Positions 4,098 through 14,390 of a DNA stretch of 64,000 bases are shown piece after piece. The notes beneath the pieces were generated by a model, which was given only the letters and a program-made list of their open reading frames with translations, had not been told where the DNA came from and made no database searches. Source of the stretch: Nitratireductor sp. XY-223 (lineage in GTDB: Bacteria > Pseudomonadota > Alphaproteobacteria > Rhizobiales > Rhizobiaceae). Position 1 is the stretch's first letter, and each line of letters begins with the position of its first letter. The DNA lies in NCBI RefSeq assembly GCF_004959855.1, contig NZ_SPNT01000002.1, positions 372,001 to 436,000 on the forward strand. Direction: 5' to 3'. The position numbers and the translations under genes were made by a program.

Positions 4098-5945
4098 CTA
4101 TTCAATCACCCGGTAGAGGCGGATCGGATTGTCCGAGGCGATCGCGACCGGCTCGAGGAAGGCCGGTATCCGGTCTTCCGCCAGCCCGGCATAGAAACTC
4201 TCCGGATACTTGCTGGCAATATCGCGGGCTTCCGGGTCCGACGGGCAGAAGGCAACCAGCGTCACGCCGGACCCGCGGATGAAAGCCTCGGCATCGTCGA
4301 CGGTGCCCATGGCGATCTGAAGCTGCGTCAGCATTCCGCCCTGGTTGCGGTGATAGGGCGCCGAGAGCACGCGGTGCGGCGTGAAACGCAGGATGTCGGA
4401 GCCGAGATTGGACACGGCCGAGACAACGCCCGGCGGTTCGGCGGCGAGTGCCGCCATGTTCCGCGGCGCGTCGCACATGGCCAGTTTCTCTTCGGCCTCG
4501 GTGGAATGGGTCTTGACGGAGTCCACGCCGTCGACAGCCACGGCCCCGCCGATCATCCAGACGAACTGGATGGAGATCACCGCCAGGAGGATGTATTGCG
4601 CGGCCGCAAGTCCGAGCCTGTTTTGGGCGCGGTACAGCTGCTGTTTCTCGGCGATGATGGCCGAGAGCGGAACGACGGCCAGGAGGTTGGCAAAGACCGA
4701 ACCGCGCACCTGCACCAGCGAGATCAGGAAGGCGACGACGATTGCCGCGGCAAAGCACAGGTTCTGCCGGGGCCGCACGCCGCGGCGGACCTGCCAGACA
4801 CAGGCGATCAGCGCGATGAGGGGAACGGCATAGAAGCCGGTCAGGTTTTCCGGGCTGAATTTCAGCTGGCTGACGACGGACCGCGCTTCGGCCACCCGGT
4901 CAAGCCACATGGTACGCAGCACCGGGTCGAGATCGGCAAGCGGGCTGCGCAGGCACTCCGGGACGATGAGAAGGGCCGCGACGGCAACGGCGACACCAGC
5001 ACCGGCCAGGGCCGCGAACCGGGCCGCGCGGCTGCGGTCGCTGGTCAGCGCGGCCAGGAAGAACAGCACGGCGCCGCCGGCGGTGCCGAGAAAATAGAAC
5101 CCGCCCGAAAACGCGTCGCACACGACCGCACCGTAGGCGTTCGGCGGCGTCAGCAGATAAAAACAGCCGGCGAGCGTTGCCGCGAAGCACAGGCCGAAGG
5201 CGCTGGCGGCCTGCATGGCGGGCCGGCCCATCCAGGCCCAGAGCACGGCCATCGCGGCGCATCCGGCGGCAACAAGCGGCATCGTCTCCGCGCCGATCAC
5301 GATGGCCAGCGCCGCGGCGACCCCGGCAACGGCCGACCAGACGCGGTTCAGCCTCGGATCGGTCAATCCCGCCAGCATCAGGATGATCAGTGCCAGTTGT
5401 GCATTGTGATGGTCGATGGCGCCTGGCCGGAAGCGGTTCTGCGCGATGACGAAGAATGCGCCGAGAAACAGGGCGACGAGCATGCCGGAGCGGCCGCCGA
5501 GATTGCGGCCCGCGGCGGCGATGCCGATGAACAGCGGGACAAGAAGGATGAGCGGCCACACGAACAGCGCCGCGGCCTCCGCGTCGCGCATGTCCATGAA
5601 CAGGGAGAAGAAGCCGATGAGATTGGCGAGCGGCACATCGATCAGACGCGACCAGTGCATCTGGGTGCCGCCCTCCAGACCGAGGCGGTACTGGGTGAGA
5701 TCGAACCAGCCCTGACCGGCCATGAGATCGCGGATCTGCACGAGACGCATCACGTCGTCATTGTCGTCCCCGACATAGTCGGTGCCATAGAGAAAATGCA
5801 TGCCCGCCAGGAACAACGCCGTCAGCAGCGCTGTCAGCAGAACCGGCAGGAAAATGCGGTCTTCGCCGCCCGATGCCGTTCCCGGATTGGATTCGCCGAC
5901 GCTCGTCAAGTCCGTGTCTCCCCAGACATCCGATTTAATTGCCAC
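4098..5945 (-). CDS. GT-C type polytopic glycosyltransferase (STT3/oligosaccharyltransferase-like)
   Basis: Integral membrane protein of about 12 predicted helices, probably transferring a sugar from a polyprenyl-phosphate donor on the periplasmic face. After the first helix comes an acidic loop YVGDDNDDVMR, the position of the catalytic Asp motif in GT-C enzymes, then HWSRLIDVP, typical of bacterial STT3-like proteins. A soluble C-terminal segment follows the last helix. The GTG at 5945, with AGG seven bases upstream, gives 615 residues; a TTG at 6026 would almost abut the divergent gene and leave no promoter room. It lies back to back with GtrB- and GtrA-like genes, which suggests one pathway: the neighbours make and flip the lipid-linked sugar and this enzyme uses it. 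The acceptor is unknown. Confidence 0.75.
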   Translation of the reverse strand: MAIKSDVWGDTDLTSVGESNPGTASGGEDRIFLPVLLTALLTALFLAGMHFLYGTDYVGDDNDDVMRLVQIRDLMAGQGWFDLTQYRLGLEGGTQMHWSRLIDVPLANLIGFFSLFMDMRDAEAAALFVWPLILLVPLFIGIAAAGRNLGGRSGMLVALFLGAFFVIAQNRFRPGAIDHHNAQLALIILMLAGLTDPRLNRVWSAVAGVAAALAIVIGAETMPLVAAGCAAMAVLWAWMGRPAMQAASAFGLCFAATLAGCFYLLTPPNAYGAVVCDAFSGGFYFLGTAGGAVLFFLAALTSDRSRAARFAALAGAGVAVAVAALLIVPECLRSPLADLDPVLRTMWLDRVAEARSVVSQLKFSPENLTGFYAVPLIALIACVWQVRRGVRPRQNLCFAAAIVVAFLISLVQVRGSVFANLLAVVPLSAIIAEKQQLYRAQNRLGLAAAQYILLAVISIQFVWMIGGAVAVDGVDSVKTHSTEAEEKLAMCDAPRNMAALAAEPPGVVSAVSNLGSDILRFTPHRVLSAPYHRNQGGMLTQLQIAMGTVDDAEAFIRGSGVTLVAFCPSDPEARDIASKYPESFYAGLAEDRIPAFLEPVAIASDNPIRLYRVIE

Positions 5946-6035
5946 GGCGCAACCTAGCCTTAACCTTCCCAAGAAATAGTAAAGGCGCGCGCGAGCGCGT
6001 CCGGGCCCATTGCCTGCAATCGACAAGACGAGGCC

Positions 6036-7046
6036 ATGATGTCAGATTTGATTTTCGACGACCTGCAGATCGCCGTTCTGCTGCCCTGCTACAACGAAGA
6101 GGCAACCATCGGCGATGTCGTTACGGGGTTCCGGCGCGAACTGCCGAACGCTCATGTCTTCGTCTACGACAACAATTCCAGCGACCGGACGGCAATTCTG
6201 GCCGCCCGCGCCGGCGCCACCGTGGTGCGCGAGCCGCGTCAGGGCAAGGGCCACGTGGTGCGGCGCATGTTCGCCGATATCGATGCCGACATCTATGTCA
6301 TGGCCGACGGCGACGGCACCTATGCACCCGAGGATGCGCCTGATCTGGTGCGCACGCTGGTGACCGAGCGCAGCGACATGGTCGTCGGCACGCGCCGCGG
6401 CGTGACCGCGGATGCCGGCCGCTCCGGCCATGCCTTCGGCAACCGGCTGTTCAATTTTATTTACACGGCGCTGTTCGGAAGTGATTTCACCGACATCTTT
6501 TCCGGATACCGGGTCTTCAACAGGCGTTTCGCCAAGAGCTTTCCGGCGCTGTCCGGCGGGTTCGAGATCGAAACCGAAATGTCGGTGCACGCGTCGATGC
6601 TGCGCATGCCCGTTTCGGAGCTCACGCTCGACTACGGGCGCCGCCCGGAGGGCTCTGACAGCAAGCTTTCAACCTTCAAGGACGGCTTCAAGATCCTCTG
6701 GATGCTGATGCTGCTCGTCAAGGAGACCCGGCCGTTCCTGTTCTTCTCGAGCATCAGCGGCGCCCTGCTCGTCGCCAGCCTTGCCTTCATGGCACCGGTG
6801 CTTGCCGAATATTTCGAAACCGGGACCGTGAGCCGGGTTCCGACATGGATCGCGGCGATCGCGCTCTTGATGATTTCCATGCTGTTTTTTGTCGCGGGCG
6901 TTATTTTGGATTCTTTGGCCCGAAGCCGTGCAGAACACAAAAGGATGCTGTATATGGGTCTCCCGACGACACGCGGCGAGCCGCGCCCGGTCGGAGATGA
7001 TCAGCGCCCATCAGGCGGCAAGGCAAGGAAACCAATCGCTGCATGA
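6036..7046 (+). CDS. Polyprenyl-phosphate glycosyltransferase, GT2 family (GtrB/DPM1-like)
   Basis: Predicted to load a nucleotide-activated sugar onto undecaprenyl phosphate at the inner membrane. The GT-A fold begins at LLPCYNEEATIGDVV, the nucleotide/metal motif is VMADGDGTY, and DIFSGYRVFNRRF and GGFEIETEMSVHA are typical of the DPM/GtrB branch. Two C-terminal transmembrane helices (about residues 230-300) anchor it, as in GtrB. The ATG at 6036 follows ACGAGGCC. It overlaps the downstream gtrA-like gene by four bases (ATGA), indicating translational coupling, and is divergent from the GT-C gene with a gap of about 90 bases. The sugar identity cannot be read from the sequence. Confidence 0.9.
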   Translation: MMSDLIFDDLQIAVLLPCYNEEATIGDVVTGFRRELPNAHVFVYDNNSSDRTAILAARAGATVVREPRQGKGHVVRRMFADIDADIYVMADGDGTYAPEDAPDLVRTLVTERSDMVVGTRRGVTADAGRSGHAFGNRLFNFIYTALFGSDFTDIFSGYRVFNRRFAKSFPALSGGFEIETEMSVHASMLRMPVSELTLDYGRRPEGSDSKLSTFKDGFKILWMLMLLVKETRPFLFFSSISGALLVASLAFMAPVLAEYFETGTVSRVPTWIAAIALLMISMLFFVAGVILDSLARSRAEHKRMLYMGLPTTRGEPRPVGDDQRPSGGKARKPIAA

Positions 7047-7420
7047 TAAAACGTCTCTTTAGTTTCGTCGTTGTCGGCGGAATTGGATTTGTGACGGATG
7101 CGGTAATTTTGATGGGGTTGTTGCGCTTCTCGGCGCTCGACCCCTTTACTGCACGACTCATCGCCATTGCCGTTGCGCTGCAGGTCACCTGGCTGCTCAA
7201 CCGGAACTTCACGTTCGGCAAGAGCAGCAGCCATGCGGCCGTCGAGGGCATGCGCTACGGCGGCGTGGGGATCGCCACGAGCCTGTTGAACTATCTCGTC
7301 TATTCCGGGCTGATCGTGTTTGTCCCGGACCTGCGCCCGGTCATCGCGCTGACCATCGGATCGGCCACCGCGACCATCTTTTCCTACACGGGCTACGCCA
7401 AGCTGGTCTTCGGGCGGTAG
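7043..7420 (+). CDS. GtrA family membrane protein (putative lipid-linked sugar flippase)
   Basis: Small protein of 125 residues with four hydrophobic segments and the GtrA-type start FVVVGGIGFVTDAVIL, followed by the conserved WLLNRNFTF in the middle and YAKLVFGR at the end. GtrA proteins are thought to flip polyprenyl-phosphate sugars to the periplasm. Its ATG lies inside the stop codon region of the GT2 gene, so the two are coupled. With the divergent GT-C enzyme it completes a three-part GtrA/GtrB/Gtr-specific arrangement. Confidence 0.9.
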   Translation: MIKRLFSFVVVGGIGFVTDAVILMGLLRFSALDPFTARLIAIAVALQVTWLLNRNFTFGKSSSHAAVEGMRYGGVGIATSLLNYLVYSGLIVFVPDLRPVIALTIGSATATIFSYTGYAKLVFGR

Positions 7421-7479: not shown

Positions 7480-8373
7480 CTAGTCGAACCTGAACTTCAG
7501 CTTCACGGTGGGACCGTGGAAAATCCGATCGCTGTTCATACCTGTGGTGTAGCCCGAATCGACCATGCCGAAATAGGCGTCCACGCTGTAGCCGGCGCTC
7601 AAGGAATAATTTGCGTCGTTGAACGAGATTCCCAGAAACGCGTCGACATTCGGCACGGTCTTGTTTTCGCTGCGGGCGATGCTCGTAGCATAGGTGGGGT
7701 ATATGTTGGTCAGGGTCGTCTTTTGCTTGCCGAACAGGATGGCGCCGCCGGCGCTGAAATCCACCGAGAATTTGCTGTCCCTGACCGGTACCGAACCCTC
7801 AAGGCCGATGCGCGGTCCAAAGCCTTCGAATTTCCGGGTATTGCGGATCGTTCCGGATGTGAATCCGCTGAACGTGCCGTCTTCGGTGCCCTTGAAATTG
7901 GTGTAGCGGATGCCGGCTTTGGCTTTCAGCGTTCCCTCGGGTATGCCGAGTATGCCGAGACCCACGTCGCGCCCGACCTCAAAATCGATCACCGCGTGTT
8001 CTTCCCGGCTTTCCACGGCGGCGGTGGTGGTGATAAAGGAGCTATAACTGTAGGACGCCGACTGCTCTCGGGTCTTACCCCACTTTCCACCCAGCGAAGC
8101 ATACCACGGCGTGTCGCCGAAATAGGCCCCGATCTCGCCGCTTATATGGAAACCGTCCCTGGGTTTGATCATATGGCCAGGCGAGAAATAATACTGATTG
8201 GATTCCGAAGCATCCCAGAAATCGTACATCCCGCCAACTTCCAGCCACCAGGATGTCTTGCGGTCCTGGGCGACAGTGTCGCCCTCAACCAGGATGACCA
8301 GTGCAACCGCTGAGACAGTCGTCAGCAACGCTATCCGCAATTCGCGCCGGGATCTGCGCTCGCCAGGATTCAT
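7480..8373 (-). CDS. Outer-membrane beta-barrel protein, paralogue 1 (Lpg1974-like)
   Basis: 297 residues with an Arg-rich N-terminus, one hydrophobic signal segment and a likely cleavage after TVAQD. The mature part is rich in Gly and aromatic residues with alternating strands (GDTPWYASLGGKWGK, GFGPRIGLEGSV, DFSAGGAILFGKQKT, LSAGYSVDAYFGMVDSGY) and ends in a strand KLKFRFD, as expected for a barrel. FxGxGPRxGxxG resembles the Lpg1974/Legionella OMP family; this is recognition by eye. It is strikingly similar along its whole length to the next gene upstream, a tandem duplication. An 18-base element at 8516-8533, about 143 bases upstream of the start, also recurs before the paralogue. Possible role: pore or receptor. 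Confidence 0.75.
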   Translation of the reverse strand: MNPGERRSRRELRIALLTTVSAVALVILVEGDTVAQDRKTSWWLEVGGMYDFWDASESNQYYFSPGHMIKPRDGFHISGEIGAYFGDTPWYASLGGKWGKTREQSASYSYSSFITTTAAVESREEHAVIDFEVGRDVGLGILGIPEGTLKAKAGIRYTNFKGTEDGTFSGFTSGTIRNTRKFEGFGPRIGLEGSVPVRDSKFSVDFSAGGAILFGKQKTTLTNIYPTYATSIARSENKTVPNVDAFLGISFNDANYSLSAGYSVDAYFGMVDSGYTTGMNSDRIFHGPTVKLKFRFD

Positions 8374-8515
8374 CTTGGGCCCCTCTCACAATCAACAAAT
8401 ACAATGGCTAATCAAATTGTCGCGCCGCCCGCGCCATTTGACACAATCTGATTCCGCCTTTGGATTCAATAAACTCACAGGCAAAAAAAATGAATATTTA
8501 CTGATATTTTGCAGG

Positions 8516-8533
8516 TGTTGTCACAATGCAACA
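8516..8533 (-). promoter_or_regulatory. Shared palindromic element upstream of OMP paralogue 1
   Basis: On the plus strand TGTTGTCACAATGCAACA, an imperfect inverted repeat with TGTTG and CAACA arms. The same framework (TGTTGTCnCnnTGCAACA) occurs at 9677-9694 at almost the same distance from the paralogue start (143 versus 133 bases). The arms are retained although the surrounding noncoding sequence has diverged, which suggests a protein-binding site. Confidence 0.5.
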
Positions 8534-8647
8534 TACAGTGATCACACCAGATTTGCCTGAAGAATAGCCGGCTTCTTTGCGGCTCACCCGGCGGCGCGTC
8601 GAACCTGGTCCCTCATGGAGGAAATTCCCACGCCGGCGGAATAAAAA

Positions 8648-9544
8648 CTAGTCGAACTTGACTTTCAGCTTCACGGAGGGGCCGTGAAAAATCCGGTCGC
8701 TGTCCACATTGGTGAAGTAGCCCGCATCGACCATGCCGAAATAGGCATCGACGCTGTATCCGGCGCTCACCGAGAAATTCGCGTCATTGAAGGAGATGCC
8801 CAAAAACGCGTCGACATTGGGCACGGCCTTGGTATCCCGGCGTGTGAATGCGTATGTAGCAAACGACACGTCGCTATTGATCGATGTCTTCTGCTTGCCG
8901 AACAGGATCGCGCCGCCTGCGCTGAAATCGACAGCAAACTTGCTGTCCTGCAACGGTACGGAACCCTCGATGCCTATACGCGGCCCCAGCCCGCTGAATT
9001 TGCGTGTGTTGCCGATTGGCCCTGTGCCAAAGCCGCTGTAAGTGCCAATGCCTGACTCAGAACCCTTGAAATAGGTGTAACGGACACCGGCATTCGCCTT
9101 CAAGGCGCCCTCCGGAAGGCCGAGAATGCCGAGACCCACATCGCGGCCGACCTGGAAATCGACAACCGCGTGTTCCTCACTGCTTTCCACCGAGCCGCCG
9201 GTGGTAAAGGCACCGGAATAGAACGACGCCGTCTCATCCTGGCTTTTGCCCCACTTTCCACCCAGCGTGGCATACCATGGTGTGTCGCCGATATAGGCGC
9301 CGACCTCGCCGCTGATATGGAACCCGTCGCCGGGTTTGACCGTATTGCCTGGCAGGATGAAATACTGATTGGCGTCGGAGGCATCCCAGAAATCGTACAT
9401 GCCGCCGAATTCCAGCCACCAGGACGATATCCGTTCCTGAGCAACCGTATCGCCCTCGACCAGAGCCACCAGAGCGACGGCCGAAACCGTCGACAGCAAC
9501 ACCACCCTGAATGCGCGCCGCGTTCTACGCTTGCCAGCTGCCAT
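8648..9544 (-). CDS. Outer-membrane beta-barrel protein, paralogue 2 (Lpg1974-like)
   Basis: 298 residues, paralogous to the gene at 7480-8373 with the same order of motifs: signal segment ending TVAQERISSWW, GGMYDFWDASDANQY, GDTPWYATLGGKWGKS, FSGLGPRIGIEGSVPL, DFSAGGAILFGKQKT and a terminal strand KLKVKFD. Differences cluster in predicted loops (for example after GGKWGK and after KQKT), the usual pattern for surface-exposed regions. It has its own upstream region of about 260 bases, shared with the divergent permease fusion, including the repeated palindrome at 9677-9694. The two barrels appear to be separately promoted, since 274 bases separate them. Confidence 0.75.
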   Translation of the reverse strand: MAAGKRRTRRAFRVVLLSTVSAVALVALVEGDTVAQERISSWWLEFGGMYDFWDASDANQYFILPGNTVKPGDGFHISGEVGAYIGDTPWYATLGGKWGKSQDETASFYSGAFTTGGSVESSEEHAVVDFQVGRDVGLGILGLPEGALKANAGVRYTYFKGSESGIGTYSGFGTGPIGNTRKFSGLGPRIGIEGSVPLQDSKFAVDFSAGGAILFGKQKTSINSDVSFATYAFTRRDTKAVPNVDAFLGISFNDANFSVSAGYSVDAYFGMVDAGYFTNVDSDRIFHGPSVKLKVKFD

Positions 9545-9676
9545 TTTGGTGACCCCTCATTCGCATTGAGCGAACTGCAAAAAGATAGCAATCCCTTGAT
9601 CACAAAACCCCATTCTGATTCACGCTTCAACAAGGCGAGGCACAAAAAATCGGAGAGCAGGGCAATTTTTTGTATA

Positions 9677-9694
9677 TGTTGTCGCTTTGCAACA
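9677..9694 (-). promoter_or_regulatory. Shared palindromic element upstream of OMP paralogue 2
   Basis: TGTTGTCGCTTTGCAACA on the plus strand, matching the element before paralogue 1 at 14 of 18 positions, with all changes in the centre. It lies in the divergent gap with the permease/FG-GAP fusion, about 110 bases upstream of that gene, so it could also act on it. Confidence 0.5.
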
Positions 9695-9803
9695 ATTGGA
9701 CGTGGCAATCGTGCAAACGGAGTGGTAGCCAGTTCAATCCATAGATCCGCGACCAAGGGTACTCCCGTTGTCAAACCGTGAGGATACAAGAGGCGAAATT
9801 CGC

Positions 9804-12800
9804 ATGCGTCTGGAAGCAGGCGTCGGAACAAGGCGCGTGCTGATCGCCGGCGCCATCATGGCCGCAATCCTGCTGACCTTCTGGACAACCTCCCGTTATC
9901 CGTCCCTTGGAGACAAGGCGCTGATGGGAGGCGCCATTCAGCTCGAAGATCCGTTGAGTTTCGAAGCGCTTTTCCCCGTTGAACAAAGCGATCCCCTTGC
10001 CAAGAAGATCCTTCTGTCCACCGTCAACTGGATAAAGACAAACCTGCAGGGAATGGTTTTCGGCGTCCTTTTCGGTGCGGCGTTCCTGACCCTTCTCGGC
10101 CAGCTGCGGCGGCGTGCCTTCAGATCGAAATATCTGAACACGCTACTGGGATTCGGCATGGGTGCACCGCTCGGCGTGTGCGTCAATTGCGCTGCGCCCA
10201 TCGCGCAGGGAATCTACAAGGGAGGTGCGCGCCTGGAGACGTCGCTGGCCGCTATGCTCGCATCTCCGACCTTCAACATCATCGTCCTGACGATGATGTT
10301 CTCCTTGCTTCCCGTCTACCTCGTCGTCTCGAAAATCGCGTTGTCCCTTGTCGTCATCTTCATTGTCGTCCCGATGGCGGTATCGGGCCGCCATTCTTCA
10401 AACCTCGAAGGGCAGGCAACGGAGCAGAATGCCGTGGCGTGTCCCATCGATATCCCGGTGAAGGGGGGAGGCGGTCTTTGGACGGATTTCGCCGACACGA
10501 TCAGGCTGTTCCTCGAAAATCTCTGGTACATCATTCGCATGACCGTGCCGCTGATGGTGCTGGCCGGGGCCCTCGGCGCGGCGGCCGCGCACCTGCTGCC
10601 CTACGATTATCTGAACGATCTGAATGTGAGCCTGTTTCATCTTGCGGCCGTCGCGCTGTTCAGCCTCTTTCTGCCGGTGCCCATCGCATTCGACGTCGTT
10701 CTCGTTTCCGCGCTGATGGCGGCCGGGCTGCCGGTCGCATTCGTCTCGGTCATGCTGTTTTCACTCGGTATTTTCAGTATTTACGCGTATTTCATTGTCT
10801 GGCGCATGGTCTCTTTCCGCTTTGCCGCGATGCTCGCGGCAGCGATCTTCGTCGTCTCGTTGGCCGGCGGGCTGATCGTTGAACGGTATCACGAATGGCA
10901 GACCGGAAAGGCGCTGGATCTGCTGCTTTCCGATACCGGCATCGGTTTCGTCGGCACAGCCAGCGCTGCCGGCCTGTCGGAGGATGCCGGCGGAGAGAGC
11001 CCGGTCACGATAACGAAACTGCGCGCCTTCGCCCCTTCTTCGGCTGAGGGAAAGACGCCGTTCCGCCGGATCGAAGCGCACCATATCGGCATTGACCGGC
11101 CCATCGAGTTCGCCTTCGAGGACATGTGGGCGCCCTTCTGGACGACCAACGGCAGCGTGTCGCTCGCCGATCTCGACCGGGATGGCGACCTCGATTTCGT
11201 CCTGGCGAGGACGGATGGAGGCCTGAGGATCTTTTCCAATGACGGCTCCGGTCGGTTTCAACCGGTCGAACTCGACCTGCCCGCCATTGATGAACTCAAA
11301 GTGGTCAATGCCGTGCCGGTCGATCTTGACAATGACGGCTGGCTCGACCTCTTCCTGGCAACCTATGCCGACGGCAACCGCGTGGTCTGGAGCCAAAACG
11401 GCAAGTTCGACAACGACCGCATTACCGAAACGCGCAACCGCGATGATGCCCGGGTCGCCATGGCTGTCTCCTTCGGCGATGTCGATCAGGACGGCGATCT
11501 GGATCTGGCCGTCGGAAACTGGGCATCGGGCTGGTACCGGCGCCTGCCGGGCGAAGAATCGCGCAACCGTATTGTATTCAACGAGGGAGCATTAAGCGGA
11601 GAACGGTTTTCCGAACTCTCCGCCGTGCCGGGCGAGACCCTGTCGATCCTGCTCAGCGATTACATCAACGACGAAAAGCTCGATTTGATCGTCGGCAATG
11701 ACTTTGCCATTCCGGATATCTTTTATGTCGGACGGGAAGATGGGGAATTCGAGAATATCGGCGCCGAACAGGGCATTATCGAAAACTCCACAAGAACGAC
11801 AATGAGTATCAAAACGGCGGATCTCAACAACGACCTGGTTCCAGAAATCTACACAGCCCAGATTGCAGGTCAGGCCGAAGATGCGTCCGAGCGGATCAAT
11901 TTTCAGGAAAACGCGCTTTACTGCTCAGAGATAGAACGGGATGCGGACCGTCGAGAGTGCCAGAAAAACGTCGACATCCGAACCTGGTATCGGCCTGGCC
12001 GGAAACTCGACCCGTCCCTTGCGGTCAATTGCCTGTCACTCAGCGGTGACGACATCGAAGCCTGCAAGGCGATGATGGTGAAAGATCTGGCCATTCAGAA
12101 CAATAGGCCGGACATCTGCCTTTACATAAAGCCGCACCAGCCGCTGGCACGAAAATTCTGCGCCGTCCACTTCCTGCCCTCGCCTGAAATTGAGGACATT
12201 CCCTTAGCTGACTATGTTCCGCAAATACCCGGCCGCAACGTGCTGCTCGAGCGCGACGGCGAGGGACGCTTCAGGGACGGGACAGAAGAGGCGGGACTCG
12301 AACTCGGCGGTTGGAGCTGGGACAACAAGATAGCCGACTTCGATAATGACGGCCTGCAGGACATATACGTGGTCAATGGCTGGTGGCCGAGACAGGGTGC
12401 CTCTCCCTCGAATGTCTATTTCAGCAATCTCGGCGAAATGAAATTCATCGATGCTACCGAGCAGTTCGGCCTTGAAGATTACTTCGTCATGCCGGCGGCC
12501 GCGGCCGGCGACATCGACAATGACGGCGATCTGGACATGATCGCAGCTCCGATCAATGCACCGATGGTCGCTTACATCAACAATGCGCAGGACCGGAATT
12601 CCGTTCGGATCGGCATTGTTGACGAAATCGGCAATCGCTTTGGCGTCGGCTCGAAAATCACCATCAAATACGGTGGCCCGGAGAAACACAATCAAATGCG
12701 CGAACTGCAGCTAGGCGGCGGTTTCAACAGCTTCGACCCCATCGAGGCCCATTTCGGCCTCGGGCCCGAAACGCAGATCGACGAAATTGAAATCCGTTGG

Positions 12801-12881
12801 TCAACCGGCGAGCACTCCCGTCTGGAGGGTCCATTTGCCGCAAATGCGGTTTACCAGATCGAGCGCCGACGTCATGACTGA
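9804..12881 (+). CDS. Permease (UPF0718/ArsP-like) fused to seven-repeat FG-GAP propeller and ASPIC/UnbV domain
   Basis: 1025 residues. Residues 1-370 hold about eight to nine membrane helices with GVCVNCAAPIAQG (Cys126-x-x-Cys129) and LASPTFNIIVLTMMF, resembling the UPF0718/ArsP permease fold. From about residue 450 seven calcium-binding FG-GAP/VCBS repeats follow: DLDRDGDLDF, DLDNDGWLDL, DVDQDGDLDL, INDEKLDL, DLNNDLVPEI, DFDNDGLQDI and DIDNDGDLDM, which fits a seven-bladed propeller. Between repeats five and six (residues 705-788) sits an insert with three cysteine pairs. The last 95 residues match an ASPIC/UnbV (CRTAC1-type) domain (IGNRFGVGSKI, DEIEIRWSTGEHSRLEG). The ATG at 9804 has GAGG ten bases upstream; a TTG at 9768 is an alternative. 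The stop overlaps the sulfotransferase start. The propeller is presumably periplasmic. Substrate unknown. Confidence 0.85.
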   Translation: MRLEAGVGTRRVLIAGAIMAAILLTFWTTSRYPSLGDKALMGGAIQLEDPLSFEALFPVEQSDPLAKKILLSTVNWIKTNLQGMVFGVLFGAAFLTLLGQLRRRAFRSKYLNTLLGFGMGAPLGVCVNCAAPIAQGIYKGGARLETSLAAMLASPTFNIIVLTMMFSLLPVYLVVSKIALSLVVIFIVVPMAVSGRHSSNLEGQATEQNAVACPIDIPVKGGGGLWTDFADTIRLFLENLWYIIRMTVPLMVLAGALGAAAAHLLPYDYLNDLNVSLFHLAAVALFSLFLPVPIAFDVVLVSALMAAGLPVAFVSVMLFSLGIFSIYAYFIVWRMVSFRFAAMLAAAIFVVSLAGGLIVERYHEWQTGKALDLLLSDTGIGFVGTASAAGLSEDAGGESPVTITKLRAFAPSSAEGKTPFRRIEAHHIGIDRPIEFAFEDMWAPFWTTNGSVSLADLDRDGDLDFVLARTDGGLRIFSNDGSGRFQPVELDLPAIDELKVVNAVPVDLDNDGWLDLFLATYADGNRVVWSQNGKFDNDRITETRNRDDARVAMAVSFGDVDQDGDLDLAVGNWASGWYRRLPGEESRNRIVFNEGALSGERFSELSAVPGETLSILLSDYINDEKLDLIVGNDFAIPDIFYVGREDGEFENIGAEQGIIENSTRTTMSIKTADLNNDLVPEIYTAQIAGQAEDASERINFQENALYCSEIERDADRRECQKNVDIRTWYRPGRKLDPSLAVNCLSLSGDDIEACKAMMVKDLAIQNNRPDICLYIKPHQPLARKFCAVHFLPSPEIEDIPLADYVPQIPGRNVLLERDGEGRFRDGTEEAGLELGGWSWDNKIADFDNDGLQDIYVVNGWWPRQGASPSNVYFSNLGEMKFIDATEQFGLEDYFVMPAAAAGDIDNDGDLDMIAAPINAPMVAYINNAQDRNSVRIGIVDEIGNRFGVGSKITIKYGGPEKHNQMRELQLGGGFNSFDPIEAHFGLGPETQIDEIEIRWSTGEHSRLEGPFAANAVYQIERRRHD

Positions 12882-13770
12882 AAACGACCCAAACGAAGTT
12901 CCGCGGGGTATTGTCTGGCTGGCGTCCTATCCCAAGTCGGGAAACACCTGGACCCGGGCGTTCCTGCACAACCTGCTTCAGTTGATGCGGGGATCGGGAC
13001 GATCCGCGCAAGACATCAACAGCATGAACGAGTTCACCACCTGGGATCTGAGCAGCGAACGCTACGAAAAGATCATAGGCAAGCATCCCATGGAGGCCGA
13101 GCAAAGCGAGATTGCGGAAGCCCGGCTCAAGGTCCAGGAGCAGATCGCCGATGACTGCGAAGGCCTGTCCTTCGTCAAGACCCACAACGCACTGGTCATG
13201 GATCGTGGTTTCCCGACGATCAATTTCGCCGCGACGTCAGGGGCGATCTACATTGTCCGCAACCCGCTGGATGTCGCCGTCTCCTACTCTCATCACATGT
13301 CGAAGACCCTTGACGACACCATCGACGCCATGGGCAGCGACAACGTCGAGACGCCGGTCACCGAGAAATCGGTCTATGAGGTCTACGGGTCCTGGAGCCA
13401 GCACGTCCACAGCTGGACCAGGAACGACCACCGGGCGATCTACATCATGCGCTACGAGGACATGAAGGCGGATCCGCGAAAGACCTTCGGCGCACTGGCG
13501 AGCCATTTGCTGCTCAGGCCGACCGACGAACAGCTGGACGCGGCCATTGAAATGTCGTCATTTGAGAAGCTGCAGGAGCAGGAGAAGAAGGAAGGCTTCA
13601 GGGAAAAGCCGAAAAAGGCCAAGCGCTTCTTCCGTGAGGGCCGCACCGATCAGTGGCGCGAGGTGCTGTCTCCGCAGCAGTTCAGGAGAATTGTCGACGA
13701 CCACCGGGAGCAAATGGAACGTTTCGGCTATTGGCCGATCGATTATGAGGCCAAACAGGCCGGCACCTGA
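12874..13770 (+). CDS. PAPS-dependent sulfotransferase domain protein
   Basis: 298 residues. The 5'-phosphosulfate-binding loop ASYPKSGNTWTRAFLHNLL is near the N-terminus, and the 3'-phosphate site IYIVRNPLDVAVSYSHH lies about 120 residues in, both hallmarks of cytosolic-type sulfotransferases using PAPS. The later RTDQWREVLSPQQFRRIVDDHREQ region is also typical. The expected acceptors are sugars, steroids or other alcohols. The ATG at 12874 lies eight bases inside the end of the permease/FG-GAP gene, so the two are translated from one message and probably serve one process, for example export or modification of a sulfated product (inference). Confidence 0.88.
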   Translation: MTENDPNEVPRGIVWLASYPKSGNTWTRAFLHNLLQLMRGSGRSAQDINSMNEFTTWDLSSERYEKIIGKHPMEAEQSEIAEARLKVQEQIADDCEGLSFVKTHNALVMDRGFPTINFAATSGAIYIVRNPLDVAVSYSHHMSKTLDDTIDAMGSDNVETPVTEKSVYEVYGSWSQHVHSWTRNDHRAIYIMRYEDMKADPRKTFGALASHLLLRPTDEQLDAAIEMSSFEKLQEQEKKEGFREKPKKAKRFFREGRTDQWREVLSPQQFRRIVDDHREQMERFGYWPIDYEAKQAGT

Positions 13771-13787
13771 ACGCAGCGCCGCGGGTG

Positions 13788-14390
13788 CTACCAGGGCTCG
13801 ACGTCCAGTTCGGGCCAGCACTGCAGCGCCCGTTCCGCCTTTGCCGTGTAGCCGGGCTCATTGTACAGCACCCGGTTGGGGACGACCCTGAAGGAAAAGA
13901 TGTCGTCGAGCCCGAACGGTGCGCATACGTCCAGGCTATCATCTTCTTCAAGGCGAATGCCGACGGCGTGGGTTTTCGAGGAAAACCGCGAAATCGACTC
14001 GTCGCCGTTTTCCAGCGGCGCGTATTCCTCGCCGAACTTTTCGGGAAACCACAGATGTACGCGCGCCTGGTTGCGGATCTCGACCGGCAATGCGGCGCCG
14101 GAAAAAGCATCGTGGCCGCGCTTGATCACCCGGTCCTCGGCCTCCCAGGACAGGTCGTGCGGCTCGTAGTAGAACAGGTCGATGTCCTTGATGCCGTGGC
14201 CCGACGGGCGGTCCGTCAAGACATTCCACACGGTGTTGTAGATGGCGCCGGCGACGATGCGCCATTGCGGCAGACCGAATTCACGGGCCGCGACGAGGGC
14301 ATCGCGAACGATCGGCTCATCGCGCACGATGTCGATGAGGACGGCGCGCTGGCGCGCAAAAGGCAGGCCGGCATAGCGCAGGTGATCCAA
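13788..14390 (-). CDS. Nucleotidyltransferase family protein (COG3575 type)
   Basis: About 200 residues in the bacterial family COG3575, members of the nucleotidyltransferase superfamily with no proven reaction. Supporting motifs: GAIYNTVWNVLTDRPSGHG, the acidic KDIDLFYY (the metal-binding DxD), VEIRNQARVHLWFPEKFG and TAVGIRLE-like THAVGIRLEED. The start appears to be TTG at 14390 with AGAGG five bases upstream; no in-frame ATG precedes the conserved MRYAGLPFA-like region (here LRYAGLPFA). It converges on the sulfotransferase gene with 17 bases between stops. Confidence 0.8.
   Translation of the reverse strand: MDHLRYAGLPFARQRAVLIDIVRDEPIVRDALVAAREFGLPQWRIVAGAIYNTVWNVLTDRPSGHGIKDIDLFYYEPHDLSWEAEDRVIKRGHDAFSGAALPVEIRNQARVHLWFPEKFGEEYAPLENGDESISRFSSKTHAVGIRLEEDDSLDVCAPFGLDDIFSFRVVPNRVLYNEPGYTAKAERALQCWPELDVEPW

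Follow-up and report, generated by a model that had tools for sequence, protein, structure and literature searches.

The window analyzed here is a 64,000-nucleotide stretch of the genome of the alphaproteobacterium Nitratireductor sp. XY-223 (contig NZ_SPNT01000002.1, positions 372,001 to 436,000), and it carries a gene (9804..12881, forward strand) whose 1025-residue product joins a UPF0718/ArsP-type membrane domain, an FG-GAP propeller and an ASPIC/UnbV domain in a single chain. This architecture and the family that shares it are solid. We propose, with a probability of roughly 0.35, that the fusion represents an undescribed envelope module in which a transporter is paired with a periplasmic propeller and would serve a decorated surface structure, with a substrate and mechanism that we infer. 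The frame is intact from its ATG at 9804 to its TGA at 12881, and all three Pfam domains score above their cut-offs: ArsP_1 (PF03773) at residues 106-360 (51.8 bits, cut-off 32.3), FG-GAP_3 (118.1 bits, cut-off 26.9) in five stretches, of which 456-517 is the best, and UnbV_ASPIC at 947-1010 (53 bits, cut-off 23.4). The three-part architecture in one frame described by an earlier, sequence-only reading of the window is thus borne out.

Homologues with this organization are found well beyond the window. In a plasmid collection 14 records matched, eight with 80% or more of the query covered; these eight are all from Rhodobacterales, are 44.1-47.5% identical, and are unbroken in seven cases. The eighth copy (L043, on a Parasedimentitalea marina plasmid) is annotated as three separate coding sequences and may be broken. 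A scan of genome contigs with a single protein query gave no matches and an alignment query was needed, with which 244 of 279 candidate stretches were confirmed. According to their record titles, the best 80 of these 244, which were kept, belong mainly to Rhodobacterales, and also to Maricaulales, Hyphomicrobiales, a few Gammaproteobacteria, other proteobacterial metagenome-assembled genomes (MAGs) and one Planctomycetota MAG, with identities of 36-51% among the homologues; two copies of one locus, including the fusion, lie about 95 kb apart on a single MAG contig with an identical gene map (L080 and L081). A stop-free translation was obtained for 74 of the 77 ranges checked. The window protein and 65 of the 74 clean ranges make up a 66-row alignment, in which identity to the window protein is 36-50% (nine clean ranges were left out, L068, L072, L074, L075, L082, L085, L092, L105 and L110, as were the stop-containing L065, L113 and L114 and also L081, L107 and L118). 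The architecture is kept across all 66 rows, which makes it a feature of a family. A chance fusion or assembly error, which the sequence-only reading had allowed for, is rejected as vanishingly improbable given the unbroken ranges and plasmid copies, and nothing was found in its favor. A phage origin was likewise rejected, with no match among 50,697 phage records at E 1e-5. Within a sample of 151 genomes from the window organism's own family, long matches occur in G000, G114, G030, G039 and G077 (the last on two contigs), and G129 holds only a C-terminal stretch (profile positions 238-618), within a frame whose remaining sequence is unrelated, that we read as a remnant of the fusion. At this remnant locus (L011, near 243968 of contig C20), a frame on the opposite strand is sulfotransferase-like by eye.

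An AlphaFold model of the window protein (mean predicted local distance difference test score, pLDDT, 86.3; predicted template modeling score, pTM, 0.74) shows a helical membrane domain up to residue 374 and beta structure starting at residue 401. The membrane domain (residues 1-376; 9804..10931, +), of which the ArsP_1 match covers 10119-10883, contains 16 helices in the model as far as residue 374, of which several are short, so that the figure of about eight membrane helices given earlier is not established. The CxxC at Cys126 and Cys129 was correctly noted: it lies within a GVCxNC motif (10179..10190, +), both cysteines are present in 66/66 aligned rows, and the longer GxPxGVCxNC motif occurs in all 74 stop-free ranges. 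The propeller region (residues 401-930; 11004..12593, +), delimited by Pfam, AlphaFold and a fold match, has seven Asp-rich motifs, in keeping with the seven FG-GAP repeats first counted; those at 456, 507, 559, 845 and 903 are canonical and those at 619 and 673 degenerate, and from these motifs the propeller is putatively calcium-binding. It contains a mostly helical insert, seen in the alignment and the model (11922..12161, +), with six conserved cysteines (707, 719, 743, 754, 772, 786), each found in 65 or 66 of the 66 rows and four of them invariant. C707 and C719 are absent jointly in the single row that lacks either, which fits a disulfide. The C-terminal region with the ASPIC/UnbV domain (12594..12878, +), recognized by Pfam, the model and a sequence match, completes a soluble half whose best sequence match is CRTAC1 (PDB 9etn; E 7.5e-25) and whose best fold match is also CRTAC1 (E 5.3e-20, template modeling score, TM, 0.68 on the target).

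The two halves are connected by a variable linker (residues 377-398; 10932..10997, +) that is modeled at pLDDT <50 and contains an A386-x-A388 motif (AxA; 10959-10967). In two gammaproteobacterial MAGs (L113 and L114) the frame is closed by a stop 367 or 368 residues into the range, and permease and propeller are adjacent genes, an arrangement found only there among the ranges checked. Their propeller gene begins with a segment that, judged by eye, is hydrophobic and signal-peptide-like, and in the window protein residues 101-110 are basic, fitting a cytoplasmic loop; together, these features place the propeller on the periplasmic side, as had been suggested. In a quick, unrooted propeller tree of 44 rows, the split genes cluster with L108, which is fused (support 97), and fission is thus the probable origin of the split; the window groups with L095 (support 99), which forms a long branch. 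Just ahead of the split permease gene, both MAG loci carry a frame that by eye resembles a TonB-dependent receptor (L113 2-2389, +; L114 3365-5917, +).

The surroundings of the fusion were compared at 88 loci, comprising the window (first 26 kb), plasmid loci L036-L042 (L043 was omitted) and the best 80 genome loci, with flanks of up to 20 kb for plasmid loci and at most 10 kb for genome loci; L080 and L081 were counted as two. Neighbor profiles were seeded from annotated plasmid genes, and open reading frames (ORFs) were called greedily, a procedure in which long antisense ORFs took the place of certain genes; the fusion label was lost at six loci as a result, and adjacent ORFs lacking a Pfam match may in part be spurious. 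Genes of a recurring module are found at 72/88 loci: P150, a protein of about 150 residues, or P400, one of about 400, at 63, Sel1 at 58, and gsp genes of a type II secretion system (T2SS) at 40, leaving 16 loci, including the window, with none of these genes in the stretch examined. P150 and P400 are both exported proteins; in the one copy scanned of each, P150 has no Pfam match and P400 carries an S74 chaperone domain. When the fold of P400 (model pTM 0.44) was compared, its matches to viral proteins, among them proteins named tail fibre, were weak (13 at E <=0.001, with TM <=0.25), so that "tail-fibre-like" denotes resemblance only. Rhodobacterales loci usually run from gsp genes on one strand through an A24 peptidase, Sel1a, Sel1b, P150, P400 and a variable gene to the fusion, and in Maricaulales the fusion comes after gspD and gspK.

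Co-occurrence was counted across whole genomes as well. Among 149 Rhodobacterales genomes (the family of G164), nine carry the fusion and the same nine carry P400, and GspD was found at E 1e-60 in 23, including all nine. Fisher P values are 1.3e-14 for the fusion with P400 and 1.0e-8 with GspD, 2.1e-13 and 6.8e-8 without the centre genome G164, and 8.2e-11 and 3.2e-6 when the three previously known fusion genomes (G164, G153 and G166) are excluded. Where the locus itself lacked a gsp label (43 genome loci, searched as 41 genomes, since L081 shares the genome of L080 and L084 was left out), GspD scored above its cut-off elsewhere in 30 of the 41 fusion genomes and in none of the remaining 11. 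The link of the fusion to the secretion/fibre module in Rhodobacterales and Maricaulales is strong, and the proposal made from the sequence alone has to be amended in this respect: its sulfotransferase link does recur, but the main partner elsewhere is a type II secretion/Sel1/fibre-like module.

The sulfotransferase gene of the window (PF00685; 12874..13770, +), when read from the ATG at 12874, overlaps the fusion by 8 bp, confirming the reported overlap with a 3'-phosphoadenosine 5'-phosphosulfate (PAPS) sulfotransferase gene; its frame from an earlier start at 12787 scores 111.6 bits. At other loci, 30 adjacent genes were picked by hand, 29 of them from the upstream side of the fusion and one, at L122, from downstream; 12 of the 30 are sulfotransferases above the Pfam cut-off for PF00685, PF13469 or PF03567, a count that becomes 7/25 when five genes flagged earlier as sulfotransferases by profile are removed and that does not take in L054 and L088, which fall below the cut-off, or L075, judged by eye. 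Among 75 control genes at least five positions away, no sulfotransferase family was matched by two or more (families with a single member were not all listed). The tie is suggestive. At L122 (9251-13534) the fusion gene is followed by a sulfotransferase amid frames of 871, 1118 and 1540 residues that by eye resemble nonribosomal peptide synthetases.

Taken together, the two-part envelope protein, with an inner-membrane permease and a CRTAC1-type propeller bearing ASPIC on the periplasmic side, is well supported. The permease most likely carries a small substrate through the inner membrane; at the periplasmic face the propeller would receive, dock or hold that substrate or the structure under decoration. 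In Rhodobacterales and Maricaulales, the fusion would serve the module to which it is linked, made up of a T2SS, two Sel1 proteins, P150 and P400, with a variable tailoring enzyme, often a sulfotransferase, presumably acting beside it. The window fusion is coupled to a sulfotransferase with neither P400 nor GspD detected, so a sulfation-related job is likely there, in which either a surface molecule is decorated with sulfate or a sulfated product is exported. More tentatively, the family could belong to an often plasmid-borne surface system of marine Alphaproteobacteria in which transporter and secretable calcium propeller are made as a polyprotein, the T2SS displays the tail-fibre-like protein, exchangeable sulfotransferases and other tailoring enzymes set a chemical coat, and the window holds a reduced two-gene form.

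Several observations weigh against the proposed envelope module. The Fisher values are uncorrected for phylogeny, and sharing of plasmids may spread the module. Three genomes with the fusion, the window genome, G114 and G039, show no P400 match and no GspD above the cut-off, so the module is not an obligatory partner; the window genome, 98.72% complete in 59 contigs and searched for P400, T2SSK, secretin and GspD, has a single secretin, in a 518-residue frame, that scores below the GspD cut-off. T2SSK (PF03934) had no match there either and is a poor marker, its control having matched Bacillus subtilis and other genomes, so TIGR02517 was used instead. Across the window's family, fusion and T2SS show no significant association (P 0.2 if the G129 remnant is counted, 0.53 if it is not). 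Since the fusion stands without a detected module in this lineage, its core function is probably its own. Seven of the 12 adjacent sulfotransferases lie on the opposite strand and so are not co-transcribed with the fusion, which, in contrast to the window, makes the link one of position and not of a shared operon. Other occupants of the place next to the fusion include glycosyltransferases (GT25), GSCFA proteins, methyltransferases and a DDE transposase; no Pfam match at 0.001 was obtained for 11 of the 30 adjacent genes. Finally, the 12 residues ahead of AxA average 0.17 on the Kyte-Doolittle scale, which is not hydrophobic and is unlike a normal signal peptide.

The linker also bears on a different account, somewhat unlikely in our judgment, in which the propeller is cargo: a polyprotein would be cut at AxA by signal peptidase and its CRTAC1-like part secreted, by the T2SS where one is present, as a Ca2+-dependent surface or extracellular adhesin, leaving the permease to act alone. 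The linker is the least conserved part of the alignment (0.35), and nevertheless A386 and A388 are both alanine in 51/66 rows, where 1000 shuffles gave 2.6 on average and never more than 9, with Q, E or H between them in 44/66; the aligner may have favored lining up these alanines, and without column register AxA is present in 59/66 linkers against 43.8 expected, a smaller excess. The motif, being signal-peptidase-like, may be a cleavage site or a relic, and it is a speculative addition to our own scheme that signal peptidase separates the halves in some lineages. The signal-peptide-like start of the split propeller genes and the gsp genes in the flanks of 40 loci agree with secretion, and CRTAC1 is a secreted protein. 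Cleavage in general is harder to reconcile with the lack of a hydrophobic stretch directly before AxA, with the extension of the last membrane helix to residue 374 and with the absence of the motif from five Maricaulis and several divergent rows, and this account leaves the continued fusion of the halves in most lineages unexplained.

The exact co-occurrence of fusion and P400 in the 149 genomes, the position after gspD/gspK in Maricaulales and the Cys-rich periplasmic insert would also suit a chaperone or assembly platform for the T2SS/fibre module, with a permease fold that no longer transports and acts instead as an anchor or a redox (CxxC) element. We regard this as unlikely, given the three genomes with the fusion and no detected module and given that the membrane halves (0.77 and 0.64) are conserved about like the propeller (0.70 and 0.73), which suggests retained activity. 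Alternatively, the protein could be an ArsP/SaoE-like exporter of metals or thiophilic compounds whose periplasmic part binds metal, with no relation to surface structures. The ArsP_1 match and the invariant CxxC point this way, as do weak matches to SaoE (NF040736; E 1e-6) and to the SO_0444 Cu/Zn efflux transporter (NF033936; E 9.1e-4), but these last score 28.3 and 18.5 bits against NCBIfam equivalog cut-offs of 325 and 300. No arsenic-, copper- or zinc-labelled gene lies among the annotated neighbors in eight plasmid records, and the CxxC differs from the cysteines of the genome's two other ArsP_1 proteins (loci L001 and L002), so this exporter is very unlikely. A profile of the fusion family's membrane part gave no match at 1e-3 to L001 or L002.

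Elsewhere in the window, two tandem related outer-membrane proteins (Legionella_OMP, PF05150; 7480-8373 and 8648-9544, both -), the neighboring barrels that the sequence-only reading named as possible partners, are divergent from the fusion gene. A 642-residue frame at 4098-6026 (-), hydrophobic by eye, has no Pfam match at 0.1 and neighbors GT2 and GtrA genes (6036-7420). GC content is 0.54-0.60 over 8001-14000, lower than between 14 and 20 kb (0.62-0.69) and between 1 and 7 kb (mostly 0.62-0.66), and isolated 1-kb steps elsewhere also drop to 0.58; these values are compatible with acquisition of the low-GC segment.

Literature searches returned no paper combining FG-GAP, ASPIC and permease, or FG-GAP with type II secretion, Roseobacter and plasmid, and among the matches listed no title or abstract start describes this fusion protein, an absence that does not amount to absence from print. 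In this conserved single chain, a CRTAC1-type propeller is attached to a transporter fold that is known from metalloid export. Mostly in marine bacteria, gene position links both halves with a secretion/fibre module and with genes for sulfation. If our proposal is right, this is a new envelope system that offers a bacterial handle on CRTAC1-type function and explains part of Roseobacter plasmid content.

The T2SS loci of marine Alphaproteobacteria, some on Roseobacter plasmids, are among the closest known systems, in that the fusion often lies near gsp genes and an A24 prepilin peptidase. A T2SS has been reported on some non-mobilizable Sulfitobacter plasmids (PMC13386836, where the term FG-GAP does not appear) and on a Sulfitobacter chromosome (PMC6256486), and a T2SS gene was reported to be up-regulated in Dinoroseobacter co-culture (PMC4643747). 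The fusion is not a T2SS core component: it occurs with no GspD above the cut-off in the window genome, G114, G039 and the 11 further genomes counted above. With UPF0718/ArsP_1 proteins, whose curated PF03773 cut-off it exceeds, it shares the match at residues 106-360, and its nearest named NCBIfam groups are SaoE and SO_0444. As in the ArsP_1 protein of locus L001 in the same genome, the first cysteine has a spacing of +6 from a proline (by eye); the fusion differs in its CxxC, where one of the L001 and L002 proteins has CxC and the other a single cysteine when aligned by eye, in additional helices ahead of the Pfam match and in the attached propeller. Its N-terminal half is best described as a divergent UPF0718/ArsP-type permease of the inner membrane, an assignment that is well supported for architecture and side. 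CRTAC1 is not known to carry a permease, and at 25 loci of relatives matching the propeller profile no match to the family's permease profile was seen, a weak test given that the 1.5 kb beside each partial match is largely the gene itself. CRTAC1 and bacterial CRTAC1-family proteins nevertheless share with the fusion both soluble domains, FG-GAP repeats followed by ASPIC/UnbV in identical order, and the top sequence and fold match, and where CRTAC1-type proteins are free and secreted, the propeller is joined to a transporter in the window and in the other 65 aligned rows.

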